64,000 nucleotides of DNA from Thuidium tamariscinum (taxonomy: Eukaryota; Streptophyta; Bryopsida; Hypnales; Thuidiaceae). The notes beneath the pieces were generated by a model that saw only the letters and a list, made by a program, of their open reading frames with translations, did not search any database and was not told the origin of the DNA. The DNA lies in contig OX344749.2 in NCBI GenBank assembly GCA_947034885.2, positions 1,242,501 to 1,306,500 of the forward strand, read 5' to 3'. Both the position numbers and the translations under genes were made by a program. Shown here in pieces: positions 4,001-64,000 of the stretch. The stretch's first letter is position 1. Every line of letters starts with the position of its first letter.

Positions 4001-6074
4001 AATGATTTTGTATGAAAATCAGGTGTTGTTTGTTTAGTAGTGGCCCCTTGATTCAATGATGTTAAGAAGTTTCAACCTCGATTTCACGTTGCGTTTTCCT
4101 AGAAATAAGGATACTCTATAATTTATTGAAATATGCTTCACCCTTCTATGCTGATTGCACCTCTACAAACACAAATTTTCAATGAATCAGGCATTGGAGG
4201 TGCACAACGTTAGATTTAAAGGTTGGGAGATAAGAAATGGGTTCTCCAAATTTTAAGACTTTGATCCTCTTCAAGCTACTAGAAGCTTCTCCAACTTCTC
4301 CAACGTTTTTTTCTTACTTACACTAGGAAAGATGAGTTTGACTAAACTCAAAAAACTCGAACAAAGATGTAGCACCTCAAACTAATGTGCATTCTCTGCT
4401 TCTGCAGGTTTGGTACCCCAGATCGTCCTGCTGATCTTCCTCGCATTGCCACCACCCATGATGTTTGCTTTATCGAAGGCAGAGGGTTTTGCTTCTCGGT
4501 CTCGGATTGTACGGTCTGCTTCGGCCAAATACTTCTACATCATCATTTTCAATGTCTACTTTGGAGTGACCATCTTTGGCACTATTTTTGCGAATCTCAG
4601 CAGCATCAAGGGAATGGTGGATGAAGACAAGTTCTTAGTTGCTCGTTTGATACGACTGCTTGGCTCCCAATTGCCCCCTGTCGCCATGTACTACATCACG
4701 TACATTGTGCTCAAGTAAGTGCCCGCAGAACCCTTATTATTACACAGTAGCCGTAAACATTTATCAGTCATGCGTACACCATTTGCAATCCGAGTGCCCT
4801 GAACAAAGGAGTTGCGGTTTGTTAACAGGGTTAGTGTTGCAGATGTATGTATTTCATGACATTGATGAGTTGGTTTGTGACAATTGGGGCAGGTTTAGCA
4901 TTGGTTACGGTGTAGAATTGTCGCGCCTCATCTCCTTGATCAGTTTCCATTGGAAACGCAAGTTCAAGTGCCAGTCAGAGTGGGAGAAACGCGAGTCATG
5001 GGCACCGGAAGCCTTCACGTATCACCAGAGCATCCCCAACGACCTTCTCATCTTGACATTGGCCCTGTGCTATGCTGTTATTGCGCCCATGATTCTCGTT
5101 TTTGCCTTCCTTTACTTCTTGCTGGGATGGCTAGTGCAGCGTAATCAGGTTCGAATTTCTCTTTTTTCTTTACAACTCAGATCAGATAATATACATGGAT
5201 CATGTACAGTAGATAGTTTAAAAAAAAAATTTAATCCCTACAGGACCAAGTATTTGTGATCGATTATATTGTGAAAATTATCATTCGAGTGGGACCGAGA
5301 CCTATGTAATTAGAATCAAAGACGAACATTAATGTTGCAACATTGCACATGATGGTCGATACATAAACAAAATTTGGATAAAGGAAACCTCCATGTGACC
5401 TACTTTTTTCTGCTAAAAGATGATGGGACTTCTTGTTGAACCCCTAAAGGGTTAATTATTCATGGTCGCATAACAACCAATTTGATTGATCATATTCTGA
5501 AAAATCTAATTCGAGTGGTGTCAAATTTTGTATCACCAAAACATTGCACTTTTTGGCCAAAAAATGAATATAGAATGTTCAAAAGGAAGTCTTCACATGA
5601 CTTAACCGCCTGCAAACAAAAAAATTATTGTGTTCCCCTATCACGGGGTCTAGTTTAGTGTTTCTCTCTGATTCCTGGTTTGTGATTTCACAGGCTTTGA
5701 ACGTGCATGTCCCGGATTGGGAGAGCAACGGGAGCCTGTGGCCGCACATCCACCACCGAATTCTGGCTGCGCTTTTAGCTGCACAGATCACGGCAATCGT
5801 GTATTTTGCAGTGAAAGAATTTAAATTCACGCCCATCTTGTTAATACTCCCTGCCCTGACACTCATTTTCCATATTTACTGCAAGCGAAAGTTTCGACCC
5901 TTGATTGAGCGGGTGTCACTTTACATGGCCACTGTTGAAACGAAAGAGCAACCTTCCTCGGACGACATTGTTGAGGCCTACACTCCCATTTATTTAAAAG
6001 AGGGTGCTCCAGGGATTGATCGTCGAGATTCCAGCGAACGAGTTTCAAAACCTGATCCCCCTAGTGATGTGTAG
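1017..6074 (+). CDS. ERD4: ERD4/OSCA3.1-like (CSC1-family) hyperosmolality-gated ion channel
   Basis: Multi-pass membrane protein of the CSC1/OSCA (TMEM63-related) family, known as osmotically and mechanically gated cation channels. The text aligns closely with Arabidopsis ERD4 along its whole length; the predicted product is about 735 residues against about 724. Seven exons fit: 1017-1287, 1540-1973, 2508-2801, 3246-3509, about 4407/4408-4714, 4893-5148 and 5694-6074. Order: N-terminal membrane segment and SRRPGN motif (residues 5-40), two more helices near 90-165, the cytosolic loop with FAVLVRDIP and TGFLG (about 185-340), then the pore-side helix bundle (about 350-650) with KAEGFASRSRIVRSASAKYF and a short polar tail. 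ATG 1017 is chosen over an upstream in-frame GTG because it gives MVETSSF, matching the usual MEISSF-like start. Exon joins give family residues at five of six introns. Intron 4 does not: the GT-AG pair 3510/4407 is one base out of frame. Confidence 0.93.
3160..3194 (+). repeat. Interstitial telomere-like (TTTAGGG) cluster in intron 3
   Basis: Four degenerate copies of the plant telomere unit (TAGGGTTT phase) lie just upstream of the acceptor of ERD4-like intron 3. Further single copies occur in intron 2 near 2167-2210. Short telo-box clusters are common near plant promoters and first introns, so they may be regulatory or relics of repair; nothing here decides between these. Confidence 0.6.
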
Positions 6075-10773: not shown

Positions 10774-12352
10774 TTATGCAGAAGGTGCAGGTCGTGGCAG
10801 AGTGTACACCGCCACATGCGGAAGCAGCACGGAGCCCAGGAACAACTTGCCGTCGTGCTCTTCCACCTCGCTCACCATTTTCACCACCTTGCCCTCCTGA
10901 TCCTCCAGCACCTCCTTGAGATCGCCGTTGGGTCCGTAGCGCAGGATCATCCCTTTGGGCCGCCCCGCCAGCAGCCCATACACGTACTTGACGGGGATGG
11001 GCAGTCGGATGACGAGCGCCCACGCCCTTGGGAACTTGCTCATCACCTCCGCCGTCTTCACGCGGTGGCAATGGATGGCCACCCAGAAGTCGCCCGCCTC
11101 GTTGCGGCGCACATTGTCCGGCCATCCGGGCACATCCGCGAAAAGCTCATGCGTGCCGGCCTTAGCGCCCTTGAGCCAGTAGCGCCACAAGCGGGCCATG
11201 CGGCACTCCGCGAAGACGACGAACGTGCCGTCCTTGCTGACCGCGACGCCGTTGGGGAAGCGGAAGCGTTCCAGCAGCACGCTGGTTTCCTTCGTGACGG
11301 GGTTGAACTTGACGAAGCGGCCCGTGGCGTCGCCTTCAATGAGCGACAGGATGAACTGGTTGCGGTGCCAGCGCGTGCTGCTGTCTGTGAAGTAGACGTT
11401 GCCCTCGTCGTCGAAGTCCAGGTCGTTCGTGAACTTCATGCGCACCCCGTCGATCTCGTTTAACACGACCTCCGCTTGGCCGCCCTCAGGACCGACTCTC
11501 ATGATGCCCAAGTAGGCGTCCGCGATCCAAAGCTCCCCGGTCTCCTTGTGAAACCGGAGGCCCAAAGGCCGCCCGCACACCGGCTCCATCGCTAAATTCG
11601 GAGCCACGGGGCTCCTGGGTGCGCACGCAGCCGATCTGCAATGCGGAATCCCAACGCACTGGAAATTGTCATCAATCGCAACCTAATTCGCCGTCATTCC
11701 GTGATGGCAATCACTTAGATTCTAACCGCTCCAAGGTGCTCTAATTTCACATCCACTGCACTGGAGTCCAGATTGAACCCCTCCCATTCCATCATGACTG
11801 GTACTATCATTCTACCAGTCTAATGTAGAGGTGCGTGATGCATTTACACAGCTTGAGTACGTTCAATTTCGTTCTATCGGCGGAAATTCACGACATCGGC
11901 GTCTGGAACCCTAACTCTGATTTCGTTCTATTGCCGTCTGAATTGCGCAAAAAGGACGATACGTGACGAGAATTCTTGCATGCAAGAGCATGAACAATTC
12001 GAGAGCCAATACGTTACCTGTTGGTGGAGGTGTACGCGAATGTGGTCCACCCGAGCTCGGGTCCGTCGTACCGCAGCACGCGGCCATCGCTGACACCCGT
12101 GTACGGTCCCCGCCCTTGCGCGTCAAACGTCAGGCTCTCCGGGCCGAAGAACTGGCCTTCCCACTTGATTTCGGCCGCCTGGAGTTTGTTGTCCGCGTCA
12201 CGAGGGAAGTCCAAATTCACAGGTGCCAGGTCTACGTACTGCGCATTAAAATCCGTGACGCCTCGCCCCAACGCCACCTTCCAAGGGTCCGTCCCCAGCA
12301 CCCACGCCACCCACGCCACCACCCCTAGCGCCAATATTGACAGCGGCCTCAT
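10774..12352 (-). CDS. Strictosidine-synthase-like (APMAP-type) six-bladed beta-propeller protein
   Basis: Two exons, 12352-12018 and 11635-10774, joined by a GT-AG intron that splits an Arg codon, give 398 residues, the normal size for plant strictosidine-synthase-like proteins. Residues 1-20 (MRPLSILALGVVAWVAWVLG) form a signal anchor, expected to put the protein in the ER or secretory route. Family landmarks in order: GPESLTFDAQGRGPYTGVSD near 70-90, TSTNR at the exon join, CGRPLGLRF (132-140), IADAYLGIMRVGPEGG (about 149-164), TNDLDFDDEGNVYFTDSS (about 181-198), EGDATGRFVKFNP (about 211-224), RFPNGVAVSKDG and PGWPDNVR. Real strictosidine synthase makes an indole-alkaloid precursor, but most land-plant relatives lack its catalytic Glu and act as esterases or have unknown roles, so the substrate cannot be named. 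The ATG at 12352 is the first in frame and gives the expected hydrophobic start. Confidence 0.92.
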
Positions 12353-20599: not shown

Positions 20600-23500
20600 C
20601 TAGAATGACTCATGCGCCAATAAATTGTCTTCAGTGGACAATTCGATTGCACCTACCAAATTCACTACTTCAGTGGGAAGAGGCCACCTCTGAGGAGCAG
20701 TCAATCCTTCTGTCTCCACTGACGTGCTAATGAAGGCGTCTGTATTGTCCAGCACTTCCCGCTTGGCTCTTGGTTCTTTACGTAGAACAACTTTCCATCC
20801 CGGTTTGTCGACAACATCCGAGAAAAAAACTTGTGTGGCTTGGCTAGGAAAAATAAAAGGCTCCGACATACGAGGCAGTTTGTGTCGGAAATTTACTACA
20901 AGGAATCCTGCTTCATCTCGGGTATATGTAGGGTTCCCTCGAGTATCTTGGGGCTTTATCCACTCACACCGCAATAGGATGATCTGAGTATGAAGTGTTC
21001 CATAATCCAATGACAATATGTCTTTCAAGACCCCAACATAGTTCACTGACAAGTCTCCAGTACTTCCTGCTGGTTGCTCAAACATTGAAGCAACACCGCT
21101 ATTGTAGCTTATCAATCTATTAGTGCTTTCATCTTCAGCACGGAAGTGGTTACCAAATGCGGTTACCCGTGCATATCGGGTTGCTCGTTGCGAGGGCTTC
21201 TGGCTAAGAAGAAAGCGGTCCATATCCTCAGGATTACGCAAATCCATCTCTGAATCACGCACCGTACTGTGAACCCATTCAGCTAGTGTTGGCGTTGATG
21301 GATTTTCACGTTCCTCAGCTTTCCACTTCCTACATACACCACCTCAATTATTTTTATAACCTTGCACGGAGTGCACGCTTGCATGCCCTGACAGATCTAT
21401 GAAGGCATTTATACTTCAGAACTCTAACAATACATTTCTATAAAGCATGTTCAAATGACTCGCATATGACTACAGGCAGTTCACTGGAAGTCGTATTCAA
21501 GTACTGATTTATGGTTATGACTACGGAACGACTTTGTAATAACTTTTATTCTACTATAGAGCATAAGCTGAACAGAGTATCTAGGACAATTGTGCCCAAG
21601 TAAGCACTTCCAGAACATTCTATTATAGAGATTTGGTGTGAGAATGGATTGAAAGACTTACTCATACAAATCCTGCATACTGGAGACATTTGTGAGCACA
21701 TATTGATGGGCTAGGTCTCGTAGCTCACTACTCATTACGTATGTTTTTCCAGCGCCTTGTAAAACCTCCTCTGCGTCACCATATTCTTCATCTTCATCCC
21801 ATACTCATCTTTGCGTAGCTTCAAATTTGTGCAAGTACTCTGTAATGAAGCCAAGGCACTCATCTTTCAAGTATCCCTCTGCCATACATGCTTCGGGACG
21901 TGCCATGTTTCGAACATGGTTTTTAAGGACCTTCAAGTAACGTTCCACTGGATACATCCATCTTGTACTAACTGGTCCACAAAGGTCAAGTTCCTTTGCA
22001 AGATGATAGGGTAGATGCGTCATGATGTCAAAAAAAGACGGTGGAAATTGCATCTCCAACAACGCCATACTTTCTACAACATCAACCTCTAGTGATGGAA
22101 AATCTGCAGGATTATACACCTTTGTGCAAAGGCGTCGGAAGACCTTGCACATTCGCATCACAGCCATTCGAGGGCCAGGCTGCATCAACCCTCTAAGCGC
22201 TAGAGGCAACAATTGTTGCATTAGAATGTGATAGTCATGGGATTTCAGCCCCCCAAAATTCTTTTTACGAATACACTTACCTATGTCTGAACAGTAACCA
22301 CTCGGTGTCTTCACTGACTCAGTGCAGCGAGCAAACTTCTCAAATTCCTCATCTGACAAAGTGTATGGTGCATGTGGCTTCACCATCTTCCCTGGTTTTC
22401 TTGGATTCGGAGTCAACCAAAGATGCCTTCTAATGTTCCGCCTTTGTAAGTCCCTCCTAACCTTCACAGTGTCTTTCTTGCCTGTTATGGTCTTCAAAAA
22501 ATTCTTGGCCAAATTCAATTCGCAATGCATGACGTCAAGTGTGTAGCGAATGAGGAGATACTGTGAAGGAACAGATCATTCACATAGTCAGTTCCTTCAG
22601 TAACAACACAAATTCTTCCTTCACGTATAGAAACATTGACGGAAATTCAGCCCTCTCTACAGCTTTGAAGAATTAAGCCCTGACTCTCTATAGCTCTTAC
22701 ATTTCATGTCTATACTATGTCACTGCCCACATGAAATCACGGATACCCATCCATCACTTCCCATTGTAATTTGCGTACATTCTTCTATAACTTTGTTTAA
22801 GCAGAAATCAATGTATAATCATTCTACGACAATGTTTCTTCTTTGCTACTCAAAAGTCACTAGAACTCTACTTCGAAACTGTATTTCAGTCGTAATCTAG
22901 TCATTTCCAACTCCTCATGACACAGAGCTTTGTTCCTTACCTTCCAATAAGGGAGTCGATATAGAATGCAGAGGCGCTTCAAACCGTGGAGTTTGGATGG
23001 GTCCCCAGCTGAACCTTCTCTATTTCCAGCTGCTTTCCATGCCTGGAATTCTTCAGCATAGCGCATTTGATCCTCAACACTGACTTCACGTGGTTTTGGC
23101 CGGTCCTCCATTTTTCCATCAAAGTGGTCTTTCATTTCAGCCAATCTGTAAGGATGGTCTTCAGGAAGCCATCGCCTAGTACCTCCATATGTTTGCTTTC
23201 CAAGTTCCATGGAATGCTCAGCACCTAAGTCAATACCACACCAAGGACATGCTGCGTAACCTTGGTGTGAGAATCCACCTACTGTGCCATATCCTGGAAA
23301 GTCATGAATCGTCCACAAGAGCATAGCTCGCAGCTGGAAGGCCCTAGTACCAACATCTTTAGTAATGTCATAGGCCGGAACTCCTGTCCACAACTCGAGA
23401 AGTTCTTCTACAAGGGGCTCGAGATAAACATCAAAAACTTCAGAAGTCACTGACTCCCTCCCTGGAATCAACAAAGCAAGGAGCACAAAAAAAATTTTGG

Positions 23501-24725
23501 TGCTCAACCATGGAGGTAGATTGTAATTGAGCAATAGTACCGGCCAAGTGGACCAAGAAGATTTGTTCTGCTTGAAAGGATTGACTCCGTCTGCAGCTAA
23601 GGCGAAGTGAACATTTCTAGGGTCATTTGCAAATGTAGGATCCACATTATCGTGGAAGTGTCTCCAAGCCTTCGAATCACAAGGGTGCCTGACAAGTCCA
23701 TCTCCTCCGTCCCGGTTGCTTTGGTTTTCTGCATGCCAGACCATTAGTTTCGAGATTGCAGGACTCCTATACATTCTTTGAAGTCGAGGAACTATTGGGA
23801 AGTGTCTCAGGACCTTCAATGGAAACGTCCGGTGCTCTTCATCTCGATATCTGCGTCCACCGCACTTAGGGCACCGGAGATCATTTTCATGTTCCCCACG
23901 AAAGAGAACACATCCTTTTTCACATGCATGTATAGTATTATAAGTCAAACCCAATTTTGTAGTGAGGCTTTTTGCAACATGAAACGTTTTGGGAAGTGTA
24001 TTTCCCTCTGGCAAAATGTGCTACTGCAAGAGGCTAAATAATTCATTTGCACAATGATTACTAACTCCGTGAATGGTACAAAGGTTCATAAGCAGTACAG
24101 TTGTTGCTAGCTTGCTGGCCCTTGATCCCTCATATAACCTCTCCATTGAATCCTCCAGTGTCGTACCATCAAAGTTTGAGTTGTCACCACCTCCATCCGT
24201 GTCCATGTCGACAGCAGTTGGCTCATCCCGGCATTCCTCAGTCTCTGCACCTTCCTCTGGATCCAAGTCCATCATGCTCTCGTGGACAGAGTCAGCAATT
24301 GCAAAAGCATCTGTAAGTTCACGATGAATTCTCTCTGCTGAAGATTCTGGGTTATCCCTTTCGGGTAATGCTTGTTGAACCATGCCGCGTGTGTCTACAT
24401 CTGCATCAACCTCCACTGCAATATTACCATCCATTCCTTGTTCTCCTTCAGCTGGTCTCCAAATCTGCTGCTCCCACTCTTCATCTGAAGAGTCACGGGA
24501 GCCTGGTCCTGTCCAAACCCTACAATTTGGATGTCGTCCATTCTTTATGAGGTGATCTTTGACATTGCGAATTAATAACTTCTTACACCCCCTGCACTTA
24601 GTGCATGGGCAATGTAATTTTTTGACGTTGTATTCTGTAGCCCTTTGCAATTCTCTGATCCACAGGCAGTCATCACGTAATCGTTGCCTATGACTATCAG
24701 AGAGGGGCAATCTTGCTGGTAACAT
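20600..24725 (-). pseudogene. TNP2-like CACTA transposase, three exons with two in-frame stops
   Basis: Exons 24725-22941, 22560-21662 and 21329-20600 join in phase at GT-AG sites and would give about 1137 residues, normal for TNP2-type transposases. Domains in order: N-terminal transposase-associated zinc-binding domain (LHCPCTKCRGCKKL and KNGRHPNCRVW, residues about 35-75); Transposase_21 catalytic region (ILPEGNTLPKTFHVAKSL, CPKCGGRRYRD, ADGVNPFKQNKSSWSTWPV, FPGYGTVGGFSHQGYAACPWC), which ends across intron 1 at LPYWK/YLLIRYTLDVMHCE; a DUF4218-like block (exon 2, RPEACMAEGYLKDECLGF); and a DUF4216-like block (exon 3, VTAFGNHFRAEDESTNR). Two codons in this otherwise collinear frame are stops: TAG at 24023-24021 (between FSLLQ and HILPEG) and TGA at 21807-21805 (between EATQR and VWDEDEEYGD). 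Both are one C-to-T step from sense codons. Everything else reads intact, so silencing was recent or these stops are tolerated. Confidence 0.88.
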
Positions 24726-30158: not shown

Positions 30159-31676
30159 GCAGAAGCCATTGACGATCTCCGCAGCATGTTCAAAAGCTAT
30201 ATGCGAACCTCTGAACACAGTGAGGATGGCAGCCGGTCTATTAAACAGTCTGGGTTAGAACATGAGGCATGTGGGGGATTAACTAATGTGGAAGCAGGTG
30301 GCACCCTACCAAACTCTCGCAAGAAAGTCTTCGAAGGTGATGTGGTTTTGCAGAAAAGTATAGGGGCTCCAGCGAAAAAACGTGAGGCCTTCTCAGACCC
30401 AAGTAAGAATCACGATGCTTCCATGCTTGCAACGGTCGGAGACGTGACATTGTCTTCAGACTCTGATGTGCCTGAAACAAGGAAAACACCCCCTCAGCCA
30501 CCGTTGTTGAAGAAAGAATGGAAGGTGGCAGCAAGAGGCCCCACGGACATGGTGGTTACTCCATTGGAGGGAACAAATCCGATCATTATGGAAGGCACGG
30601 TTACTCCACCAACTCCTACGTCTCCAAACGAAGGCGTTCTTAAATTAGGAGGAGAGACTGAAGAAGGAGGTGACATCCCTAAACCAGGAAGTCCAAAAGG
30701 TGCTTCCAGCCCTCAAGAGATTAATGCAGCCAGTGAAACCGCCGTGGAGGAGGAACCAATTGTGACTGAATTGGCTGGAGGGGCCAACCATGAAGATTCT
30801 TTGGAGAAGTCTACAACTGCAGAACTTGCTGTAGTTGATCCTTCTCAAAAAAAAAGTCGGAGACCAGCAAAGTCTCCCATCAAGGTACAACCTATCTCTA
30901 CAAGAGCTGCGGAATGTGTGTTCAGTGATGTGAAGCTTGGGAAGTCTCTATTCGACATTAGTAGCACAAAAAGAGGTGCGAGTACTGAGGGTAGGCTGAA
31001 GCTGGTAGTTCTGAATATCCATGGTACCCTCCTGGACTGTAGTTTGTTGTCTACTCCGAACCCAAATACTGCAATACGGCCGAGTATAAAAACAGAGCAT
31101 AGGAGAGTAGTCTTCAGACCATGGCTGAAAGCTTTTTTATCCAGGTGTTTCACGCATTTTACAATAGGGTTTTGGGGAAGTGCAACCGTTTCTTACATGG
31201 AAGATATAGTGCCCACCATGCTAGCTGGTGTGAAGGGAGTAGAAAAGCCAATTCCCCTCTTCTTATGGCCTGGAAAACCTTGTGAGACTGAAGAGGATGA
31301 AGGTGGTTTGCCAACGTCAAGGGGAAAGAACCTACACTTAGTATACAAGGGCTGGCCGGCTTTTAACTCAGAGAACACGGTGATAGTGGATAGTAAGAGT
31401 GGTAGGGTAGATTGCAATCCAAAGGCAAACATCATAATCAATACCCCTTTCTATGTGAAGTGGCTTCGAACTTTGGCAGATGACAAAGACTACCTCAAAT
31501 GCTACTTGTGGCCAGTTTTGGAGGCGTTGTGGAAATGTTCTGATGTCAGTTCTTTCCGTATGAAGTATCCTCAAATTATGAACGAATCCATCACTGAAAT
31601 GCTACAGAAACGCAGAAGTGGAACACCGTATGAATTCCTGGACTTTGTGGAAGGTGAGGGGATCCTCAGACCATAG
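30159..31676 (+). CDS. FCP1/NIF-like (HAD) phosphatase domain protein inside the CACTA element, active site degenerate
   Basis: The frame continues in phase after the TAG of the preceding entry (AEAIDDLRSMFKSY), with the first ATG at 30186, from which 496 residues follow. Counting from that Met, residues 1-265 are low-complexity, rich in Pro, Ser, Glu and Lys, with basic patches (QKKSRRPAKSPIK). Residues about 271-455 look like an FCP1-homology phosphatase fold: LKLVVLNIHGTLLD (motif I), RRVVFRPWLKAFLSRCF, FTIGFWGSATVSYMEDIV (motif II region), KNLHLVYKGWPAF and NTVIVDSKSGRVDCNPKANI (motif III). The family's motif I is DxDx(T/V); here both Asp positions are Asn and His (residues 277 and 279), so phosphatase chemistry is unlikely. 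Such domains act on nuclear phosphoproteins in plants. A good donor (AAG/GTGAGG) at 31653 lies before the stop at 31674, so splicing to downstream exons is possible. Capture of a host gene by the transposon is the simplest reading. Confidence 0.65.
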   Translation, partial: AEAIDDLRSMFKSYMRTSEHSEDGSRSIKQSGLEHEACGGLTNVEAGGTLPNSRKKVFEGDVVLQKSIGAPAKKREAFSDPSKNHDASMLATVGDVTLSSDSDVPETRKTPPQPPLLKKEWKVAARGPTDMVVTPLEGTNPIIMEGTVTPPTPTSPNEGVLKLGGETEEGGDIPKPGSPKGASSPQEINAASETAVEEEPIVTELAGGANHEDSLEKSTTAELAVVDPSQKKSRRPAKSPIKVQPISTRAAECVFSDVKLGKSLFDISSTKRGASTEGRLKLVVLNIHGTLLDCSLLSTPNPNTAIRPSIKTEHRRVVFRPWLKAFLSRCFTHFTIGFWGSATVSYMEDIVPTMLAGVKGVEKPIPLFLWPGKPCETEEDEGGLPTSRGKNLHLVYKGWPAFNSENTVIVDSKSGRVDCNPKANIIINTPFYVKWLRTLADDKDYLKCYLWPVLEALWKCSDVSSFRMKYPQIMNESITEMLQKRRSGTPYEFLDFVEGEGILRP

Positions 31677-32708: not shown

Positions 32709-33345
32709 TTACATATGTTTTTTTATCCTGGTGGTAAGTGTTTGTTATGAGGGTAGTTGTACCGTACTAGAACAGCACATAAGTGTTTCTTTTTTTGTTG
32801 TAAATGCTATAGAGACCTTCGAACTCTCTTCATTTTCAGAAAGCAAAAAACTGTCTCTGTTTTTGTTCCTATGAAATCCAAAGTTGTTTTTCCTTTTCAA
32901 ATGCACATGGTTTGCAGAGAATTAGTGATTGTATTCCACTATATTCATGCTATGAAATTTGTGACAAGATAAGTAAGCTTTAATCTATACTTGGAGCACT
33001 CAAGGGAAGCAATGTTTGTGATGTTTTGATGTAAGAAACCATAAGGCACCAGTCCACCATAAGCGTGCACTCTTTATATGGTGATGTGGTACTTCTTAGT
33101 GCTCACTGACTATATTGGAACTTAGATTGTAATCATAAACAAGTAAAGAAGAAATATTGTTCATAGTACTCTCACGGTAGTCAAAGCACTGTTTACAATG
33201 CCTCGACTTCAAGATGACTTTCAAATTACTGCCCACAAATGTAGATGGTAATCGAAAAGCACACCATCAATGACTTTGAAATGACAAGAGAATTACTTAC
33301 TACGTGGCGAACCTATCAATGTCAAAAAACAAACTCACAACTTGT

Positions 33346-33740
33346 AAATGACTAGGGGGCGACTCGTGATGTGGCTGCCCATGTCAGATTTTAACCGGGT
33401 CTCTTCAAACTGGTCTTCACTTGGAAATGACTCTGAGACAACTGCTGATGTGGCTTTCCACGTCAGATTTAAAATGGGTCTCTTCAAACTTGACTTTTGT
33501 TGTAAATGACTCTAAGACAACTGGTGATGTGGCTATCCACGTCAGATTTAAACCGGGTCTCTAAAAACTTGCCTTCACTTGTAAATGACTCTAAGCCAAC
33601 TGGTGATGTGGCTATCCACGTCAGATTTAAACCGGGTCTCTTTAAACTTCCCTTCACTTGTAAATGACTCTGAGACAACTGATGATGTGGCTGTCCACGT
33701 CAGATTTAAACCGGGTCTCTTTAGACTTCAGAATGACTTG
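33346..33740 (+). repeat. Five 79-bp tandem copies in the right subterminal region of the CACTA element
   Basis: Units begin with AAATGACT at 33346, 33425, 33504, 33583 and 33662, an exact 79-base period, and each contains GATGTGGCT, CCACGTCAGATTTAAA and GGGTCTCT. Each unit carries one AATGACT motif, the element-wide subterminal motif, and one CACGTC G-box-like core. Arrays like this in CACTA elements serve as binding sites for the TNP1/TNPA-type protein; that role here is by analogy. Confidence 0.9.
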
Positions 33741-34668: not shown

Positions 34669-36580
34669 TGATAGAGAGGTGAAGCTAATGTGTTGTTGAA
34701 GCTATTTGCTTATATTTGCAAAATTGGAGTTAAAGTTTGATGATTAGAGTGTTTTGGAAATCAATTGTGTGAGTAGCGATGAAGATTTGGGATAATTTTT
34801 TTAATGTTTCTAAGTTAATTGATAGAAGAATGGGTTTGCATAATAACTCAAGTGAGAAGATTTTTATTGTCTTCATAGATTGTATTTTAGAAATGAATTA
34901 TAGCTTTCACGCCTATAATGTATTGTAAGTAGAATTCACTATACTCTTAGCATCCTAGAAACTTAGAGTTTTGTAGCCATTTTCAAAGTCGAGTTTTGGA
35001 ATGTTGAAAAGTAGAATATTTGTACATTCTCAAAGAGCACTAGTAGGTGTATAATTTTTGAGTGTGAGGTCGCCATTTTATTGCCATTTAGTATGAGCCA
35101 AAGACCATGTAAAGACCTTTGTCTCGCCTCCTAAAGCTTCATTTCCTTCAATTAAGAAATACTCAAAAATATGCAAAAAATAAAAACAAATAGTGTTGAT
35201 TGACCCTTCCAAACATTTCATTTGTCTTTTGATCAATGATTGCATTGATAGAGGGAAAACTACTACTCAAAGTTGTTTTGTTGGTCATAGATAGCAATTG
35301 AAAGCCAAATTTGATCAATTTGCAACATCACAAGTGTAAAACACAGATCATTTTGGTAAACAAAAAGTGAAGGCCAATAGAAAGATCATTATGGAATAGA
35401 AGAAGTACTTCAAAATTTCAATAAATTGATTCATTAGTAAATGATTGTATTTCTCATTGCTATGGTCATTCTTTAAAAGTGAATTGTTGAAGATTGGTAT
35501 TGTAGTTCAATTTTTGTTGATATTCTTTTTGTTTAACAAGATGATTTTTAGCACAATTTTCTAATCATAACTTGACTATGAGCAATTGAGCTCCTACTCA
35601 ATATTCATCCTCTTTTATGTATCCTATAGGTTTTGTTCTACCTTTGACCATCCTTCTTGTATAAAGGGTTTGTCACTTGCCTTTACTTAACACTACTCCA
35701 TGAGGCACTCAAAGCTAATTCTATATAATTCATTGCACTAATCAAAATTTAGTGCTAAATGAAGTAAAAATAAATATCTAATACTGAATTTTTAACTAAG
35801 TTTTATAAACTTGTCCATGTGGTGGCTCTGCACATATGGCAGCCCTCCCCTTTTGCCTATGTCACAATCTATGAATTTTGAATTTTTGAATATCAAAAAT
35901 TGAATAAAAGATTGGAAGAAAATCAACAAAAATGTCTTGATTGATTGTTGGAATCAAGATGTCCACTAACCAAGAGAAACAATCAACATACATTGGTTCA
36001 TTTTCATGTTATTTTGGACAAAGTTTTTTCATGTAGTGCTCCCACAAATCTTTGTTACTGCACATATTACACAACATTTAAAATTTGCAGACATGCATAC
36101 ATCAAACAAGGTTTGCATCAAGTACGTGGTGGTTGAAATTGAAACCATACTAACCGTAGGAGAGTTGTTTTTTGGCTTTTGGGAATTTGCTCTAAATTGA
36201 ATCCAAACCTGTAATTTGGGTAGGGTGTATCATTTCCCCCCCCTCATTGTAATGGTACAAATTTGAGCTAGAGATGTTAGGGATCCCGTAGGAAAAGAAC
36301 ACACAATGATGTCGCTTAGGGATTGAAAGATTATAAGGTTTGATCATGAGGGTGTTAAATGGATTTGAAGTTACTTTCAATCCTCTTTTCATGTGTTGAA
36401 TCGAAGAATTTGGTCACCCGAGAAAACCATTACGAGGTTACGAGGCATGACATGCATAACCCCGATCAATTTACAGCTCCTCAAAATCTACTTGACAACT
36501 TTTTTGAATGAACTTCCAATGCGATTTTGCCCCCAAGACCGAAGCATCTTTGAGGCCCATTTCTAGGAGCCCTCAACAAC
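34669..36580. other. AT-rich spacer, no gene seen
   Basis: No open frame of note, no paired repeats identified. A C8 run lies at about 36236. Confidence 0.5.
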
Positions 36581-36955
36581 ATGGGAAGTCAAGGATTGGG
36601 GTGGACACCCTTGCACAAAAATCATGATGGATCGGAGAACCTTTCAAAAATGCTAAGTGTTAGGTTTTAGTTAACTTGCAAGTATGTGTTGTTAACGGGA
36701 GCAAAATGGGAAGTCAAGGATTGGGGTAGACACCCTTGCACAAAAATCATGATGGATCGGAGAACCTTTCAAAAATGCTAAGTGTTAGGTTTTAGTTAAC
36801 TTGCAAGTATGTGTTGTTAACGGGAGCAAAATGGGAAGTCAAGGATTGGGGTGGACACCCTTGCACAAAAATCATGATGGATCGGAGAACCTTTCAAAAA
36901 TGCTAAGTGTTAGGTTTTAGTTAACTTGCAAGTATGTGTTGTTAACGGGAGCAAA
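36581..36955 (+). repeat. Three 125-bp tandem copies, almost identical
   Basis: Units start with ATGGGAAGTCAAGGATTGGG at 36581, 36706 and 36831, an exact 125-base period. Copies differ by about one base (GTAGACAC in copy 2 against GTGGACAC), so the array is young or homogenised, unlike the decayed DNA around it. It directly abuts the GC-rich tRNA-like patch that follows. Confidence 0.93.
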
Positions 36956-36972
36956 AGGAAACAAGACTGTGA

Positions 36973-37040: not shown

Positions 37041-37492
37041 GGTAACCCGGTAACCCGCGGTCCTTCACTTCCCAAGGTAGCTCCCGTGATAGCTCCCGTG
37101 ATCCCAGGTGACTGTAAATTTCCTACGCTCCATACTTACCAAGTACCGTGATGGCAACAAGCGGTTTTGGCAAGTCAAAAACTCCCTTAAGGTATTTTAG
37201 GGATTATGGATTGCGTCACATTGCAGTGAATGCTGTGAACGGTGAATGCGTATGTCCAAGTGGCAGTTTGGTAGTGGGTAGTAAGTTTGTGCATCATCTT
37301 TCATGTTAATCATCGCTTCGGTGCCTACGGTATCTAATTCTGTTGTTGATCATGATAAGGATTGATTCGATGTTTTTGAATGTTGTGAGTAGTCGGTAGC
37401 AAGTTCAGCTACATTCGTTTTCAACGGCCGTTCCTGTAGGTCTGAAACCCATTATTCAATCATATCATACTGAGTCATTTACTAACATTGTA
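37041..37492. other. Spacer before the TWINKLE-like copy
   Basis: Contains a short direct repeat (TAGCTCCCGTGAT twice, near 37078 and 37092) and otherwise nothing I can assign. No coding text upstream of 37493 resembles the TWINKLE N-terminus. Confidence 0.45.
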
Positions 37493-38788
37493 TTGTATGG
37501 GTTGGATCACATCAAGGGCAATCGAGAGATTGTGATCGTGGAGGGGGAGTTCGACAAGCTGGCCATGTACGAGTCAGGCATCATTAACTGTGTGAGTGTG
37601 CCTGATGGCGCACCTGCTAAAGTCTCCGGAGATCAGATTCCCCCTCCAAGCGAGGACAAGAAGTATGAGTATCTTTGGAACTGCAAAGACTATTTCAAAG
37701 ACGCAACACGAATCATATTGGCAAGTTCTGATTCTGATGAGCCTGGACAAGCACTAGCTGAGGAGCTTGCACGCAGACTTGGACGAGAGCGTTGTTGGCG
37801 CGTCACGTGGCCGGAAGATGAGACTGGGAAACAGTGCAAGGATGCTAACGAGGTCCTCACTTCTTTAGGACCCGAAGCTGCGAAGGACCTTATCAAGACT
37901 GCAGAGCTCTTCCCTATTCGAGGCCTTTTTGGCTTCCAACAGTTTTTTCGAGAAATTGGTGACTAATTCTATCTTCGCCTGGGTGATGAGCGAGGGGTGT
38001 GCGCGGCCTTGATGATATTTACAGGGTGGTGCCTGGTGAGCTCACTGTCGTTACAGGAGTCCCGAATTCTGGCAAGAGTGAGTGGATCGATGCACTCATC
38101 TGTAATTTGAACGGGAATAAGCAGTGGACGTTCGGTCTCTGCTCAATGGAAAACAAGGTGCGTGAGCATGCGAGGAAGCTGTTGGAGAAGCACATCCACC
38201 GCCCGTTTTTCGATGCGCCGTATGCAAGTTCTAATCCACGTATGAGTAAAGAAATCCTGGAGGAAGGAAAGAAAGGGCTACAAGCTAGATTCTTTTTTTC
38301 TTATCCGACATGAGGACGAGGAGCTTCCTTCAGTGGATTGGGTCCTGAATCTTGCTAAGGCCGCTGTGATGCGGTGCGGCATTCGTACGTGGGCTAGCTT
38401 GTGATTGACCCGTATAACGAGCTGGATCATCAGCGTCCTGGGAATCAAACTGAAACGGAGTATATATGTCAGTCAAATGCTGACGAAGATCAAGCGCTTT
38501 GCCCAGCACCATGACTGTCATGTCTGGTTTGTTGCACATCCGAGGCAATTGCAAGTTTGGAAAGGTGAAGCACCTGGTCTGTACGATATTAGCGGCAGCG
38601 CCCATTTCATCAACAAATGCGATAGCGGCATTGTTATCCACCGCAATCGAGATGAAAAAATGGAGCCTCTTGACCAAGTGAAAGTGCTCGTGAAGAAAGT
38701 TCGCAACAAGGCGGCTGGAACTATTGGTGTAGCCACCTTACGATACAACAGGGTCACTGGAGATTATGAGGATGTGAGGGAGGCTTAG
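37493..38788 (+). pseudogene. Truncated TWINKLE-like organellar primase-helicase pseudogene
   Basis: TWINKLE is the plant mitochondrial and plastid DNA primase-helicase. The text matches its C-terminal two-thirds: the Toprim part (IVIVEGEFDKLAMYESG, CVSVPDGAPAKVS, ALAEELARRLGRERCWRVTW), then the RecA-like helicase with VVPGELTVVTGVPNSGKSEW (Walker A), MENKVREHARKLLEKHI, IDPYNELDHQR (Walker B region), HDCHVWFVAHPRQLQ and YDISGSAHFINKCD. The N-terminal zinc-ribbon and start are absent. The copy is broken: TAA at 37964-37966, a frame change near 38010, another near 38310-38400 and another near 38468, and DGDGPG of Toprim is DSDEPG. No introns interrupt it, although the plant gene is multi-exon, which points to a retrocopy, but no poly(A) or target duplication was found. 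Confidence 0.88.
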
Positions 38789-51534: not shown

Positions 51535-53825
51535 TCACTTGACCTGCTGACCGACGTAGGTTTTCCCGAAGGTCCAGTCTTTGCCGGCAAGTTTACTAAC
51601 GGCAACCTTCTTGTCACTCGTGACGATCTTGATGGAGATAGCTTTACCGCAGTAGTTGCGGGTGCATTGCCAGTTTGCACCCCAGTTTCGGGACATGGGA
51701 GCCCAAGGCAGGTAGTCGCCTTTAATATACACTTCAATCACCACACCTGATCCTCCCACGTTTGTGATTGTCACCAGGTTGAAGTTGCAGTTCCCGTTCA
51801 GAGTGAATCTGATTCCTCCAAGTTTCTTACATGGGACTCTGTGACCCACGAGCAAAAAATCAAAACAAAGCTCTGGCAAATGATTGAGTGAAAAAAATTT
51901 GAAAGACTGCATCATAGATAACAGAAAAAGAATCGGAGGATAAGGATCGTACCTTCGGAACTGCAGGGGCACAATGCCAGCTTTGGGATCGGCAATTTTG
52001 GTGAAGGCGGGGTAAGAAAGGTCAAAGTGCTCGTTGGGTGGGTTACACCATCCGCCGTTGTTTGCACTCTGTCCTGGATTAGGAGGACAGAAATTGGTGG
52101 CGGTCACAACAATGGATCCAGCCTTGCAAGGTTTCCCTTTACCACTGCAGGCTACTTCGTAGCAAGCGCCGCAGGCCATTCCGTTGTTGAAAAGCTTTGC
52201 AGACAATGCGGCAGTATAGACGCCGTACCCCGAGGCGTACAAGTTGCCATAACCGCAGGCACCCGCTGCATACTCACACAGGGACAGCATACTAAACTTC
52301 AGAGACAATAACGATAGCAGTACAAAATATACAAGTGTTGGAGAGGGCAGACAAAACAGGAACCGCTGCTCCCATAGCAGTGCTGGAAGATTACGAACAG
52401 TCCAGAAACATTCAGATGGAAAAATCTAAGAACTCTTGATAGAACAAAAACTCTACACTTACACATGGTTCCAGAAGCGTCCACTCCACCATAGTAAGTG
52501 CACCTCCCTTTCCTCCAAGCTTCAGCAGGCGCAGGTTTCGGAGGCATAGGCCGGTAGGTGCGGGGTGTGGTCAACGAGTAATTTCCGGTTGAATCTGGGA
52601 CTTCCTCACCATATACAGCAAGTGCATCACCTTCTGAGGCTGAGGCATCGTACGTCACAACGCCGTAACCTGATCCATGACTGTTGTCCGAGGAGCTCCC
52701 AATCTCGGGGTAGCCTTGGACCAAAGAGCCCTGGTCTTGAGTGGCCGCAAGCGATAAATCCTCATCGGGCTCAGTGAATGAAGAATCATCCTCGGTTGTC
52801 GCAGAAGAGGCATCGTACGTCACAACGCCGTAACCTGATCCATGACTGTTGTCCGAGGAGCTCCCAATCTCGGGGTAACCTTGGACCAAAGAGCCCTGGT
52901 CTTGAGTGGCCGCAAGCGATAGATCCTCATCGTACTCGGTGAATGAGGAATCATCTTCGGTTGTCGCAGAAGAGGCATCGTACGTCACAACGCCGTAACC
53001 TGATCCATGACTGTTGTCCGAGGAGCTCCCAATCTCGGGGTAACCTTGAACCAAAGTGCCCTGGTCTTGAGTGGCCGCAAGCGATAAATCCTCATCGGAC
53101 TCGGTGAATGAGGAATCGTCTTCGGTTGTCGCAGAAGAGGCATCGTACGTCACAACGCCGTAACCTGATCCATGACTGTTGTCCGAGGAGCTCCCAATCT
53201 CGGGGTAACCTTGGACCAAAGTGCCCTGGTCTTGAGTGGCCGCAAGCGATAGATCCTCATCGGACTCGGTGAATGAGGAATCATCTTCGGTTGTCGCAGA
53301 AGAGGAATCGTACGTCACAACGCCGTAACCTGATCCATGACTGTTGTCCGAGGAGCTCCCAATCTCGGGGTAACCTTGAACCAAAGTGCCCTGGTCCTGA
53401 GTTGCAGCAAGTGACTGTGAATCATCGTCGAATTCGTTTGTGTCGAATCCAGGAGGAATGGCATCGGCCGCTGGAGGGGTGGCGCTCTCCGCAAACGACT
53501 CGGAAACAGTGTCATCTGGTTCGCTGAAATCAAATCCAGAGGGAACCGGATCGGCAGTTGGAGGTGTTGCGCTCATGCTGGTCATGTTCTCTTGGTCAGA
53601 ACGGGCCAGATCGACCAACACCAGAGGGCTACTATCGTCTGCCACCAACACCTCGTTCGCCAGGACTGCGCTGTGGGAGTCACTGGACCCTTCCGTGGTA
53701 TTCGTGATGACTGGCGCCGAGGTTGGAGGATCTGATACCTTCACTTGGGTAATGGTCCCTTGCACCTCTTCAGAACGGACACTGCTGCAGAGCAGCAGTA
53801 ACGCCAATGCCAACACTGCGGCCAT
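51535..53825 (-). CDS. Secreted acidic-repeat protein fused to a complete alpha-expansin
   Basis: Exons 53825-52463, 52265-51953 and 51838-51535 join in phase and give 659 residues, against about 250 for ordinary alpha-expansins. Residues 1-18 (MAAVLALALLLLCSSVRS) are a signal peptide. Residues 19-137 are Ser/Thr/Asp-rich with two PPTADP/PPAADA-type segments. Residues 138 to about 397 are four full and one partial copies of a 55-residue unit (AATQDQGTLVQGYPEIGSSS, then GSGYGVVTYDASSATTED). A Pro-rich hinge (RTYRPMPPKPAPAEAWRKG) leads to the expansin: TYYGGVDASGTM/SGACGYGNLY, CGACYEVAC, TATNFCPPN, WCNPPNEHFDLSYPAF (HFD motif of the GH45-like domain), then the C-terminal cellulose-binding domain with MSRNWGANWQ and DWTFGKTY. 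Introns sit at the two places usual for expansins. Expansins loosen cell walls without hydrolysis; the repeats may anchor or position it in the wall. ATG 53825 gives the signal peptide; an upstream in-frame CTG/ATG-like stretch is leader. Confidence 0.92.
52635..53414 (-). repeat. 165-bp coding tandem repeat of the expansin fusion gene
   Basis: Five units with an exact 165-base period (the phrase encoding YGVVTYDAS recurs at about 53306, 53141, 52976, 52811 and 52647). Units differ at few positions (T/S after DQG, S/Y/P before DEDL), so the array is homogenised and probably length-variable between individuals. Confidence 0.95.
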
Positions 53826-54740
53826 CTTCGTCGACACCCTGGAAACAGAGAGAGGACCAATGCATTTTGAGAATTCGGTGCGAAGAATCACATCACAAAC
53901 TCAATATGAGACGACATAGAGTCTGTACCATTTCCAACTCGCACTGTGGATAGAATCGAGAAATCATTGAAAGTAAGCTCAAGTAACTACAAACCAGCCC
54001 AAGTTCGGTTACCATCCAACAAATCACCTGGATGACGGAAATGGAAACTGATCAATCCTTCACACCCAGAACGTAAAAACACCCGCATTTCAAACTACCC
54101 TACAAACGCACTCCGAAACACGCAAACCAACACAGGAAAGGAAATTGCAGCTCGCGAGTCACAAACCATACCACAAACAACTCGAGCAAACGACACCAAT
54201 CAGATCTTGGCTCACATTGCACTTACATTCTCCTCTCACGGCCAGGTACGCGCTGAAGAACTACCCGTGGTGTTTACAGCGCTACACATTCTTCAAGAAC
54301 TGGGGGCAATGACCATTTCCCAACTCAAACTGCTCGTCAGAAGACCCCAGAAGCTCACACACTCCGATGGCAGCATGGGGGGAGAGTTGTGAACATTTGA
54401 CGGGCGCGGCGGGGAGTGAGGCGCATCGAAACGCGGCGGTGATGGCGGAGCGAGGGGAGACGCCGCGCGATTGAGAAAAACTTGGGGCATTGCTGAGGCA
54501 GGTGCATCACGAGTGCCACGATCTGAGGCCCAGCCACGTTCTCCACAGGCTTGCTGCTACAGAAGTAACAGACCTCAGTTCCGTCCTCCGCCCTTTCGCC
54601 GCCATTGCCGCCATCACCGCCGCGGCTTTCAAACGCTTCCCCATGTTGCTCGGGGGGGAGGCGCTCGGCTGCGGATGTTCCGTGCTGTGTTCGCAATATG
54701 GAGAACCAAAGGGAACGTGGACGTTATAGTGCAGTGATGT
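53826..54740 (-). promoter_or_regulatory. Upstream region of the expansin fusion gene, duplicated upstream of gene 2
   Basis: Just before the ATG is an acceptor-like CTCTGTTTCCAG, so a leader intron is likely. 53826-54420 is closely repeated at 61899-62520 upstream of the second gene. 54380-54700 is strongly GC-rich and its relative at 62490-64000 is split by the LINE. Open frames on both strands here (for example 54696-54355) are not conserved in frame between copies. Confidence 0.55.
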
Positions 54741-60968: not shown

Positions 60969-61898
60969 CTAAGGTTGCCCGTAAAAGGCATCGTAAGGGC
61001 GAACCCCGCCGAAGCCAGGTCCAGAAGTGGTGTCTTCGTGTTCCAGAGGGTATTCGTCCTCCTGGTAAGCAGAGAATGAGTCCCCTCCTGCGGCAGATTC
61101 GTCATACGTCTGAACGCCAAAACCTTGACCCTGTGTGTTGTCCTCGGAGCTCCCAATCTCGGGATAACCTTGAACCAGAGTGCCTTCATCCTGGGTTGCA
61201 GCAAACGACAACGGACCATCCTCGGTTGTAGCAGAAGAGGCATCGTACGTCACAACGCCGTAGCCTTGACCCTGTGTGTTGTCCGAGGAGCTCCCAATCT
61301 CGGGGAAGCCTTGGACCAAAGTGCCCTGGTCCTGGGTCGCAGCAAACGACGGTTCATCCTCGGTTGTAGCAGAAGAGGCATCGTAAGTCACAACGCCGTA
61401 ACCTGATCCATGACTGTTGTCCGAGGAGCTCCCAATCTCGGGGAAACCTTGAACCAAAGTGCCCTGGTCCTGAGTTGCAGCAAGTGACTGTGAATCATCG
61501 TCGAATCCGTTTGTGTCGAATCCAGGAGGAATGGCATCGGCCGCTGGAGGGGTGGTGCTCTCCGCAAACGACTCGGAAACAGTGTCATCTGGTTCGCTGA
61601 AATCAAATCCAGAGGGAACCGAATCGGCAGTTGGAGGTGTTGCGCTCATGCTGGTCATGTTCTCTTGGTCAGAACGGGCCAGATCGACCAACACCAGAGG
61701 GCTACTATCGTCTGCCACCAACACCTCGTTCGCCAGGACTGCGCTGTGGGAGTCACTGGACCCTTCCGTGGTATTCGTGATGACTGGCGCCGAGGTTGGA
61801 GGATCTGATACCTTCACTTGGGTAATGGTCCCTTGCACCTCTTCACAACGGACATTGCTGCAGAGCAGCAGTAACGCCACTGCCAACACTGCGGCCAT
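60969..61898 (-). CDS. Secreted acidic-repeat protein, paralogue of the expansin fusion without the expansin
   Basis: Single open frame of 309 residues from ATG 61898. Signal peptide MAAVLAVALLLLCSNVRC, then a leader region almost identical to that of the gene at 53825 (VQGTITQVKVSDPPTSAPVI and onwards to about residue 137), then three diverged repeat units (AATQDQGTLVQGFPEIGSSS, with DNTQGQGYGVVTYDASS in units 2 and 3). The units are shorter than in gene 1, lacking the DDSSFTESDEDL-type end. The C-terminus (SFSAYQEDEYPLEHEDTTSG, ending YDAFYGQP) is unrelated to the hinge and expansin of gene 1. The frame is intact, so it looks like a working gene for a soluble wall or apoplast protein. I recognise no named family; high Asp/Glu/Ser/Thr and regularly spaced Tyr are the main features. 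Confidence 0.85.
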   Translation of the reverse strand: MAAVLAVALLLLCSNVRCEEVQGTITQVKVSDPPTSAPVITNTTEGSSDSHSAVLANEVLVADDSSPLVLVDLARSDQENMTSMSATPPTADSVPSGFDFSEPDDTVSESFAESTTPPAADAIPPGFDTNGFDDDSQSLAATQDQGTLVQGFPEIGSSSDNSHGSGYGVVTYDASSATTEDEPSFAATQDQGTLVQGFPEIGSSSDNTQGQGYGVVTYDASSATTEDGPLSFAATQDEGTLVQGYPEIGSSEDNTQGQGFGVQTYDESAAGGDSFSAYQEDEYPLEHEDTTSGPGFGGVRPYDAFYGQP

Positions 61899-62636
61899 CT
61901 TCGTCGACACCCTGGAAACAGAGAGAGGACCAATGCATTTTGAGAATTCGGTGCAAAGAATCACATCACAAACTCAATATGAGATGACATAGAGTCTGTG
62001 TACCATTTCCGACTCCCACTGTGGACAGAATCGAGAATCATTGAAAGTAAGCTCAAGTGACTACAAACCAACCCAAGTTCGGTTACCCATCCAACGAAGA
62101 ACCTGAATGACGGAAATGTAACCCATCAAAGCACACCATCGTCCTCACCCACACCGTAACAACAGTCACATGACAAACAACCTTACTACTGCTCACCTAA
62201 ACATTCAAAACAACCAAACAAAATGAAACTGCAGATCGCGGCTCAAGAACACCGTATGCCAGTAACACCTGAAACAACGCAGCACCAAATGCTACTAAAA
62301 TCGTGGCTCACATTGCACTTACATTATCCTCTCACAGCCAGGAACGCACTGTAACGACCTCCAGCAAATGTCCGGTATGTCACACAATAGTAATTATAAA
62401 CCAAGAGCCATGAACACTTGCAAACTCGAACTTCTCGTCAGAAGACTCCTGGAGCTCATACTACTATGGCAACATGGGGGGAGTCTTCGTAACATTTCAC
62501 GGCCGCGGCGGTGAGTGAGACGCAGCAGAAGGCGGCGGTGATGGCGGAGTCGAAGTGAAGACGCCGTGGCAATTGAGTCGCGACTTCTGAAATTGCTGGT
62601 AGAAACTTATCACGAGCGCCAGGATATGACGGAGAC
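61899..62636 (-). promoter_or_regulatory. Upstream region of the repeat-protein gene, copy of 53826-54530
   Basis: Near identity to the gene 1 upstream begins at once (leader acceptor CTCTGTTTCCAG included) and fades gradually outward. The two ATGs are 8073 bases apart, giving the tandem-duplication offset. The copy is interrupted at 62638 by a LINE. Confidence 0.6.
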
Positions 62637-62638
62637 TT

Positions 62639-63785
62639 TTTTTTTTTTTTTTTTTCGAATCAAATGGAAGCCCATTGAATTAAAAAGAAACAATACAAGA
62701 CAGCCAAGCCCCGAAAGGCTGGACAAGAAGAAGTAAACCGAGCGGGGTCACCAACAACTAGAGACAAAAGAAACTAGTTGAAAGCACAAGAAGATGGAGG
62801 GGTGTTCTGGTGCCAAATAATGCAATTACTAACTCTAGTGGCAAAGGTCGGAGTACGCATCCAGAGTTGGTCGAATTCTAGCCATAGTCTATCCGTGTGT
62901 TGGGGTTGATGACGAATTCGACGCTATGTCTTCAGGAGTGCTGCGCGACCAGAATCTAGGATACTTTCCCAGAGAGCATTTTTAAAATTAAGAGTGGACC
63001 ATCGATCATGAGCAAATACCCAGCTATTCCTCGAGGTCCAGATAAGCCACAATGCAGACCCTCGCAGTAGTGACCAAATGATTTTAAAGGCTCGAAACTT
63101 CCTAGGGATCGATGTAGCAAAAATGCATTGTTTGAAGTTGAAACGGCGATGTGGTCCCAAGAGAGGTAGAGAGCCTTCGACATGATGGAGTATCGACTGT
63201 GCGTAGAGCCACACTTCACTTGCTTGTGGGCATTCATAGAATCTATGAGCTGGGGATTCCTCAAGCCCTGTTGCACAACACAAGCACCTAGTATCGATAC
63301 CTGGAGCAATTTTTGCCCTCCAAGAGTTGACAGCTATTGCAGTATGCCATACTGACCAAATGAATGCTGATTCCTTTGCTGACCGAGCTATACTCCAAAT
63401 ATCCTTCCACGGTGGTATAAACTGGTGAGGAAGATGATCAGGCCACTTAGAAGGAATAGATTTGCGTAGCTCTTTTCGCTGGGTGAGGAGTTGGCGGCCA
63501 ATATTTGATGAGTAGCTTAATAACGGTTGACCATTTTTCCATCTCCACCTGCCGGGGTCAAAGACTAGAGTTTGTGTGGTACCTGCAAAGAGTAGAAAGG
63601 GAGGTCGATTCTGACCTTTTTGTATCTTTACAACCCTGATTCTTTGAACGTGGCCGGTGATGGCTTCCTCCGATGCAGTGGGTATGAATGAGAGTTTATG
63701 GGACAACCTTCCTACTGTTGCACGTGGTGTCCCTCTTGGTATCGATAACCACTGTGGCTGAGTTGAGGAAGCTTCCATTTGTGGA
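62639..63785 (-). mobile_element. 5'-truncated LINE with poly(A) tail and target duplication
   Basis: Minus-strand orientation: the poly(A) tail appears as an unbroken T run at 62637-62655. ATATGACGGAGACT flanks the insert on both sides (62624-62637 and 63787-63800), a 14-16 bp target duplication. The open frame in 63785-62924 encodes the end of ORF2: a reverse-transcriptase-downstream zinc-binding (zf-RVT) domain with WSVWHTAIAVNSWRAKIAPG, then CLCCATGLEESPAHRFYECP (CxxC...HxxxxC) and a tail with WTSRNSWVF. The reverse transcriptase and endonuclease regions are missing through 5' truncation, as usual for LINE insertions. Clean borders indicate a recent event. Confidence 0.93.
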
Positions 63786-64000
63786 GATATGACGGAGACT
63801 TGAGTGCTTCCGATTTTTTTTTCCCCTTTATTCTTAATATTTGTTGGGTGCAAATGAACGGAAGAATCTCATTGCCTGGAGTGCTACAGGTTTCAGTTTT
63901 CTCCTCCGCCCTCAATGATCAGGCTAGCCGTCATCGCCGCTACGGCTTCCTTAAGCTTCCCCCCGTTTGCTCGGAGGGTAGTGCTCGGCTGCAGGTGTTC
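63786..64000. other. Continuation of the duplicated upstream region beyond the LINE
   Basis: Text from about 63900 (TTCTCCTCCGCCCT, then GCCGTCATCGCCGC and GTGCTCGGCTGCAGG) resembles 54575-54680, so the tandem duplication runs past the window edge. Confidence 0.6.

Follow-up and report, generated by a model that had tools for sequence, protein, structure and literature searches.

An alpha-expansin-like gene with an N-terminal acidic repeat extension, and a stand-alone repeat gene beside it, in the moss Thuidium tamariscinum

A minus-strand gene at 53825-51535 of the window (i.e., the whole stretch of DNA that was analysed, 64,000 nucleotides of contig OX344749.2) comprises three coding exons and yields a predicted product of 659 aa, in which a secreted acidic repeat extension runs in frame into an alpha-expansin (EXPA) body. 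This fusion gene, henceforth called F, adjoins a second gene, S, which encodes a related extension without an expansin. As an explanation of the whole, we regard it as reasonably probable that F is a chimera of a tandem S-type gene copy and an EXPA body, and that the arm of its product acts electrostatically.

Exon structure and expansin body of the fusion gene

The features of F, all on the minus strand, are as follows.

52463..53825 (-), exon 1: codes for the signal peptide, the Ser/Asp-rich part, the repeats and the Pro-rich hinge, and reaches 19 residues into the expansin body
51953..52265 (-), exon 2: the greater part of the DPBB domain
51535..51838 (-), exon 3: remainder of domain 1, then Expansin_C and the stop codon
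52266..52462 (-), intron 1 of the expansin body: 197 nt with GT..AG ends
51839..51952 (-), intron 2 of the expansin body: 114 nt with GT..AG ends
53839..54226 (-), probable 5'-leader intron, predicted from the sequence: donor GTAAGT, acceptor TTTCCAG

Joining the coding exons at the two GT..AG introns gave a CDS of 1980 nt with no internal stop, which agrees with the three-exon model that the earlier note had predicted from the same DNA. Both ends of the leader intron are conserved in S. Retention of the first intron would stop the frame at 52299 and result in an extension-only protein; the second intron is open in the reading frame of the gene, and a transcript that retains it would encode 38 more residues between the two expansin domains.

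The product starts with MAAVLALALLLLCSSVRS, in which the signal peptide was judged by eye, followed by the Ser/Asp-rich stretch, the repeats and the Pro-rich hinge TPRTYRPMPPKPAPAE; the expansin body begins at residue 436. If cleaved after residue 18 (site chosen by eye), the mature extension comprises residues 19-435, i.e., 417 residues; the long extension claimed previously is thus present, but shorter than the 430 residues given for it. The join between repeats and expansin sits inside exon 1, after the remnant of the last repeat and ahead of the expansin, and no second signal peptide was seen by eye before the expansin, the Met of RPMPPKPAP having no hydrophobic stretch after it. Hence, the fusion is independent of splicing, and the possibility of two separate genes misread as one was discarded, as the repeat frame continues into the expansin body within a single exon. 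For its transcription and secretion, the expansin of F would depend on what the repeat gene provides, namely promoter, leader and signal peptide.

The spliced frame was matched by Pfam DPBB_1 at residues 472-556 (E 2.1e-22) and by Expansin_C at residues 568-641 (E 6.6e-21), both above cut-off, which bears out the proposal of a secreted repeat extension in frame with a full alpha-expansin. In the PDB, the body matched four distinct sequences (two entries named beta-expansin, Phl p 1, and one bacterial-type entry), the best being 2hcz, beta-expansin 1a, at E 1.9e-18; the GWCN-containing stretch before HFDL faces a gap in the 2hcz alignment and partly so in that of 1n10. From their motif context, with no named EXPA aligned, the eight conserved Cys of domain 1 (C458, 486, 489, 494, 501, 514, 528, and 562) as well as the four conserved Trp of domain 2 (W604, 611, 615, and 647) were assigned. 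The body holds 12 Cys in all, the four extra ones being 442, 576, 617, and 622; four such extra Cys are unusual in EXPA.

The EXPA motifs were taken from PMC3191482. GxxCGxCY, FRRVPC, HFDL, and GWCN of the alpha-insertion were all present in F, and HATFYG and GGACGY were not exact, being replaced by RCTYYG at 441 and SGACGY at 455. The introns interrupt codons 455 and 559, flanking the Pfam core match at 472-556; in number they fit EXPA, for which two introns are given as usual (PMC11547041 section 7; PMC3680112; PMC3628503), and they may also agree in position with introns A and B of the EXPA DPBB domain. Four Micrasterias proteins without HATFYG and with GGSCGY/F were still placed nearest EXPA (PMC3191482). 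Since these deviate too, F was filed as EXPA-like despite RCTYYG and SGACGY, and its body appears to be of a slightly divergent EXPA type. With plant EXPA it shares both domains, the eight domain-1 Cys, the four intact motifs, the four domain-2 Trp and the number of introns; it differs in its length, its acidic repeat extension, the two altered motifs and the four extra Cys. Because of these altered motifs and extra Cys, activity of the F expansin is not assured.

The neighbouring repeat gene and the proposed origin of the fusion

S was found among the window-wide reading frames of at least 95 codons as a second copy of the extension. The single-gene account of the earlier note is therefore right about the architecture of F, but had missed this gene at 61898-60969. 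The features used for the comparison of the two genes are listed below.

60969..61898 (-), S: encodes a secreted repeat protein of 309 aa on its own, in one coding exon and without an expansin domain
61912..62322 (-), probable intron in the 5' leader of S, predicted from the sequence
53312..54020 (-), stretch of F with about 98% identity to S at about 61385-62094, a putative gene-conversion tract

A distance of 8 kb separates the starts of the two genes, and S shares with F a related promoter, the leader intron, the signal peptide and the repeats. Its first 143 residues equal those of F except for six, and they are followed by a 46-residue and a 47-residue repeat unit, part of a third, then its own ending GGVRPYDAFYGQP and a stop. 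The main alignment (F 52978-54475 vs S 61102-62577) reached 82.8% identity over 1531 columns and spans the upstream region, the leader intron and the start of the repeats; a further block reaches 52627 vs 61081 (76%), and homology resumes farther upstream at 54607-54680 vs 63927-64000 (77%). The two indels in the CDS stretch compared (F 53825-52980; 27 and 24 nt) are both in frame, whereas upstream of the ATG none of the 12 gap runs is a multiple of 3, which supports translation of the extension in both genes. Upstream of S lies a LINE-like insertion at 62637..63926 (-), with approximate ends, a poly-A stretch at about 62655-62637 and a zf-RVT ORF at 62927-63868; the corresponding site upstream of F has no such insertion, and the element may influence how S is expressed.

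Near-identity of the 5' ends spans about 700 bp, with flanks at 70% and 82%. From 70% in the upstream/leader-exon and distal leader-intron segments, identity rose to 92% in the proximal leader intron, 98% in the last piece of the leader and 98.6% across the 429 nt that precede the repeats, then fell to 96% in the core of the first unit and 81.5% after it. The 5' end of the tract in F was set by a change-point test, which placed the shift from 69% to 98% at 54020 and whose value was reached by none of 2000 column permutations under the assumption of independent columns; the 3' end was set by eye. Across the first 143 codons, there were 0 synonymous and 6 nonsynonymous differences, and in the repeats 5, 6, 8, and 9 synonymous differing codons per 42 were counted (units 1/1, 2/2, 3/3, and 2/3, respectively), those in unit 1 lying mostly in its second half as judged by eye. 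Selection acting on the protein would have left synonymous sites free to differ, so that we favour a recent conversion tract of about 700 bp, and the 5' near-identity of F and S is likely to be due to gene conversion. The SHGSG form, found in S unit 1 and all five F units, with TQGQG in S units 2 and 3, hints that F was the donor. S unit 1 keeps a Phe where the five F units have Tyr, and the SHGSG/TQGQG contrast is possibly an old difference between units.

For the expansin region of F, no match to S was found. A tblastn search of the expansin body against the 64-kb window at E up to 10 returned its own exons and six weak matches (E 1.2-9.0), none of them between 52686 and 63253; the match with E 6.7 at 63254-63325 falls in the LINE-like insertion upstream of S and looks like chance. 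Homology of the hinges is weak (score reached by 47 of 2000 shuffles), so that the exact join was not located.

We propose that a tandem copy of a secreted acidic repeat-protein gene was joined, inside a coding exon, to an alpha-expansin body that kept its two introns, and that gene conversion would later have brought the 5' parts of the two genes back to near-identity. An intronless S CDS together with an expansin part carrying two introns indicates that the join was made at the DNA level and not by retroposition. Parsimony favours the gain of an expansin by an S-type gene copy over a loss in S, and the order of events given here is the one suggested by comparison of the two genes.

The converse, an older fusion that was duplicated and then lost the expansin from the S copy, appears unlikely. 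S could be a shortened descendant of the fusion; however, no expansin remnant was detected in the interval and at the tblastn threshold given above, S stops after a C-terminal sequence of its own, and the fusion must have formed earlier anyway. Capture by a CACTA element (tnp2 transposase at 22863-24020) is conceivable as well; only nine tip-like octamers were listed. There is only a very small chance that near-identical repeats gave a false join in assembly or annotation, or that F is a dying gene: units 1-4 of F and the F/S tract are similar enough for copy number and N-terminal tract to be mis-assembled, but the partial last repeat and the expansin meet inside a single exon and outside the repeat array, the reading frame, the splice sites and the stop codon of F are intact, and there is no N in the window.

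Elsewhere in the window, Pfam identified a tnp2 transposase (Transposase_21) ORF at 22863-24020 (-) and a DUF4216 ORF at 20603-21343 (-), which we take to be a CACTA-type element, as well as ORFs for strictosidine synthase at 10777-11682 (-), an RSN1_7TM channel at 4386-4715 (+), Toprim at 37400-37963 (+) and NIF phosphatase at 30159-31673 (+), the full gene of each of the latter four probably being longer. Two further tandem repeats are located at 36577-36956 (125 bp, 3.0 copies, 98%) and 33340-33728 (79 bp, 4.9 copies, 87%).

The acidic extension and its possible action

The repeats of F are organised as follows.

52642..53411 (-), 165-bp tandem array: TRF, 4.7 copies, 96% matches
53396-53232, 53231-53067, 53066-52902, and 52901-52737 (-), complete coding units of F
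from 52736 (-), partial coding unit of F

The array claimed by the earlier note is real, but instead of five 55-residue repeats it contains four complete units, with six pairwise identities of 95.2-98.8%, and a partial fifth that keeps about 32 matching residues. The extension is rich in acidic clusters and carries a net charge of -73 vs +16 for the expansin body, whose pI is 9.4 (mature F, about 4.1). It holds 19 Tyr, three per unit in all five units and four elsewhere. In S, the first repeat Tyr is Phe in two of three units and the second in one of three; the third is kept in all eight units of F and S.

Assignment of the extension to a known family was attempted in several ways. YXY is the cross-link motif of extensins, and SPPP-type motifs together with YXY mark extensin and other hydroxyproline-rich wall proteins; SPPP, SPP, and YXY occur 0 times each in the F extension and in S, and this class was rejected for both. 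Beside DPBB_1 and Expansin_C, no third Pfam family was matched in F up to E 1, leaving the extension unmatched. DUF5982 (PF19412) scored 25.3 bits in S against a cut-off of 23.9 (E 1.4e-5), yet no single stretch passed alone; the score is likely a sum over repeats, and the family was rejected, with no match in F up to E 1. A search for a known repeat family via NCBIfam gave six rows, all far under cut-off, and S had no PDB match up to E 0.1. Pattern searches in viral and prokaryotic contigs gave 2 (viral_contigs) and 15 (genome_contigs) matches, of which 0 were relatives of S, a result that says nothing on plants. The AlphaFold models, with a mean pLDDT of 30.0 (exon 1, 2 sequences) and 32.9 (exons 2-3 read through the intron, 1 sequence), could not be used.

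F would thus encode an expansin that loosens walls and bears a long, strongly negative and probably flexible arm. The most likely effect of such an arm is electrostatic: it would offset the basic expansin surface and reduce unproductive sticking to pectin, and would thereby change the expansin's range of movement and its sites of binding to cellulose, in whichever cells the S-type promoter is active. In the bacterial expansin BsEXLX1, acidic polysaccharides are bound by basic D2 residues, and mutating those residues raised creep (PMC4755413); the acidic bacterial expansin PcExl1 bound more to walls after pectin removal (PMC3995998). Read with these electrostatics, a -73 arm on a +16 body leads us to expect less binding to acidic pectin, and we consider it more likely that the arm keeps the basic expansin off pectin than that it cross-links. 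Expression of F, flexibility of the arm and its effect on binding are inferred here. It is also possible that the arm has no effect on the expansin.

It is doubtful that the extension serves as a carrier or propeptide that is removed along the secretory pathway or in the wall to yield an ordinary expansin and a free S-like protein; S demonstrates that the repeat protein can be encoded alone and the Pro-rich hinge lies directly before the expansin, but no processing site was obvious by eye. Quite unlikely is the function put forward in the earlier note, in which the repeats would anchor or cross-link the expansin in the wall and make a wall-fixed loosening factor, by Tyr coupling or, beyond what that note proposed, by calcium bridges to pectin. 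It draws on the number and regular spacing of Tyr over 417 residues, the conserved third Tyr and the many acidic clusters, and is weakened by the lack of YXY and SPPP in the extension, by the Tyr-to-Phe changes at two of three repeat positions in some S units, and by a dominant charge opposite to that expected for direct pectin binding. A small chance is given to a pH-gated, self-shielded expansin, held idle by the arm until acid releases it: at near-neutral apoplast pH, the arm would fold onto the expansin as a pectin mimic, leaving it mobile and idle, and on acidification of the wall toward pH 4, Asp and Glu would lose charge, the arm would let go and the expansin would engage cellulose, while S, secreted from the same promoter type, would be a free competitor or buffer.

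Relation to known expansins

In a set of 2461 expansins from 57 species, 91.47% were 200-300 aa long (PMC11547041), and the 8.5% outside the usual length may hold cases like F. Modular microbial expansins, e.g., Clavibacter CelA, are fused to GH5, carbohydrate-binding, dockerin or discoidin modules (PMC5072189); they resemble F in that an expansin is joined to another secreted module, but their partners are named domains, whereas F carries an acidic repeat without a Pfam match up to E 1 on a plant EXPA-type body. Micrasterias MdEXP2 is, like F, an EXPA-related streptophyte expansin with added sequence; its addition, a second DPBB and a long extension, is C-terminal, however, and of HFDL only the L is kept (PMC3191482). 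PcExl1 is acidic like F, with the charge on the expansin fold itself instead of on a separate arm (PMC3995998). Group-1 grass pollen EXPB share with F an N-terminal extension of unknown function, but are beta-expansins whose extension has a VPPG-PNITT motif (PMC4021193).

The earlier note knew of no described expansin with this architecture, and this agrees with our literature search: among the matches listed for open-licence PMC full text (titles and abstract starts), none described a plant expansin that carries acidic repeats as an N-terminal extension. The N-terminal extension of group-1 grass pollen EXPB is short. Carey and Cosgrove are said to have surveyed the expansins of Physcomitrella.

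Most plant expansins share one size and layout, and modular expansins are described in microbes. F and the adjoining donor-type gene S would offer a rare view of a chimeric wall protein beside its likely parent. F may also serve as a natural test of whether charge-driven pectin binding limits expansin action, a question on which the published work available concerns bacterial expansins.
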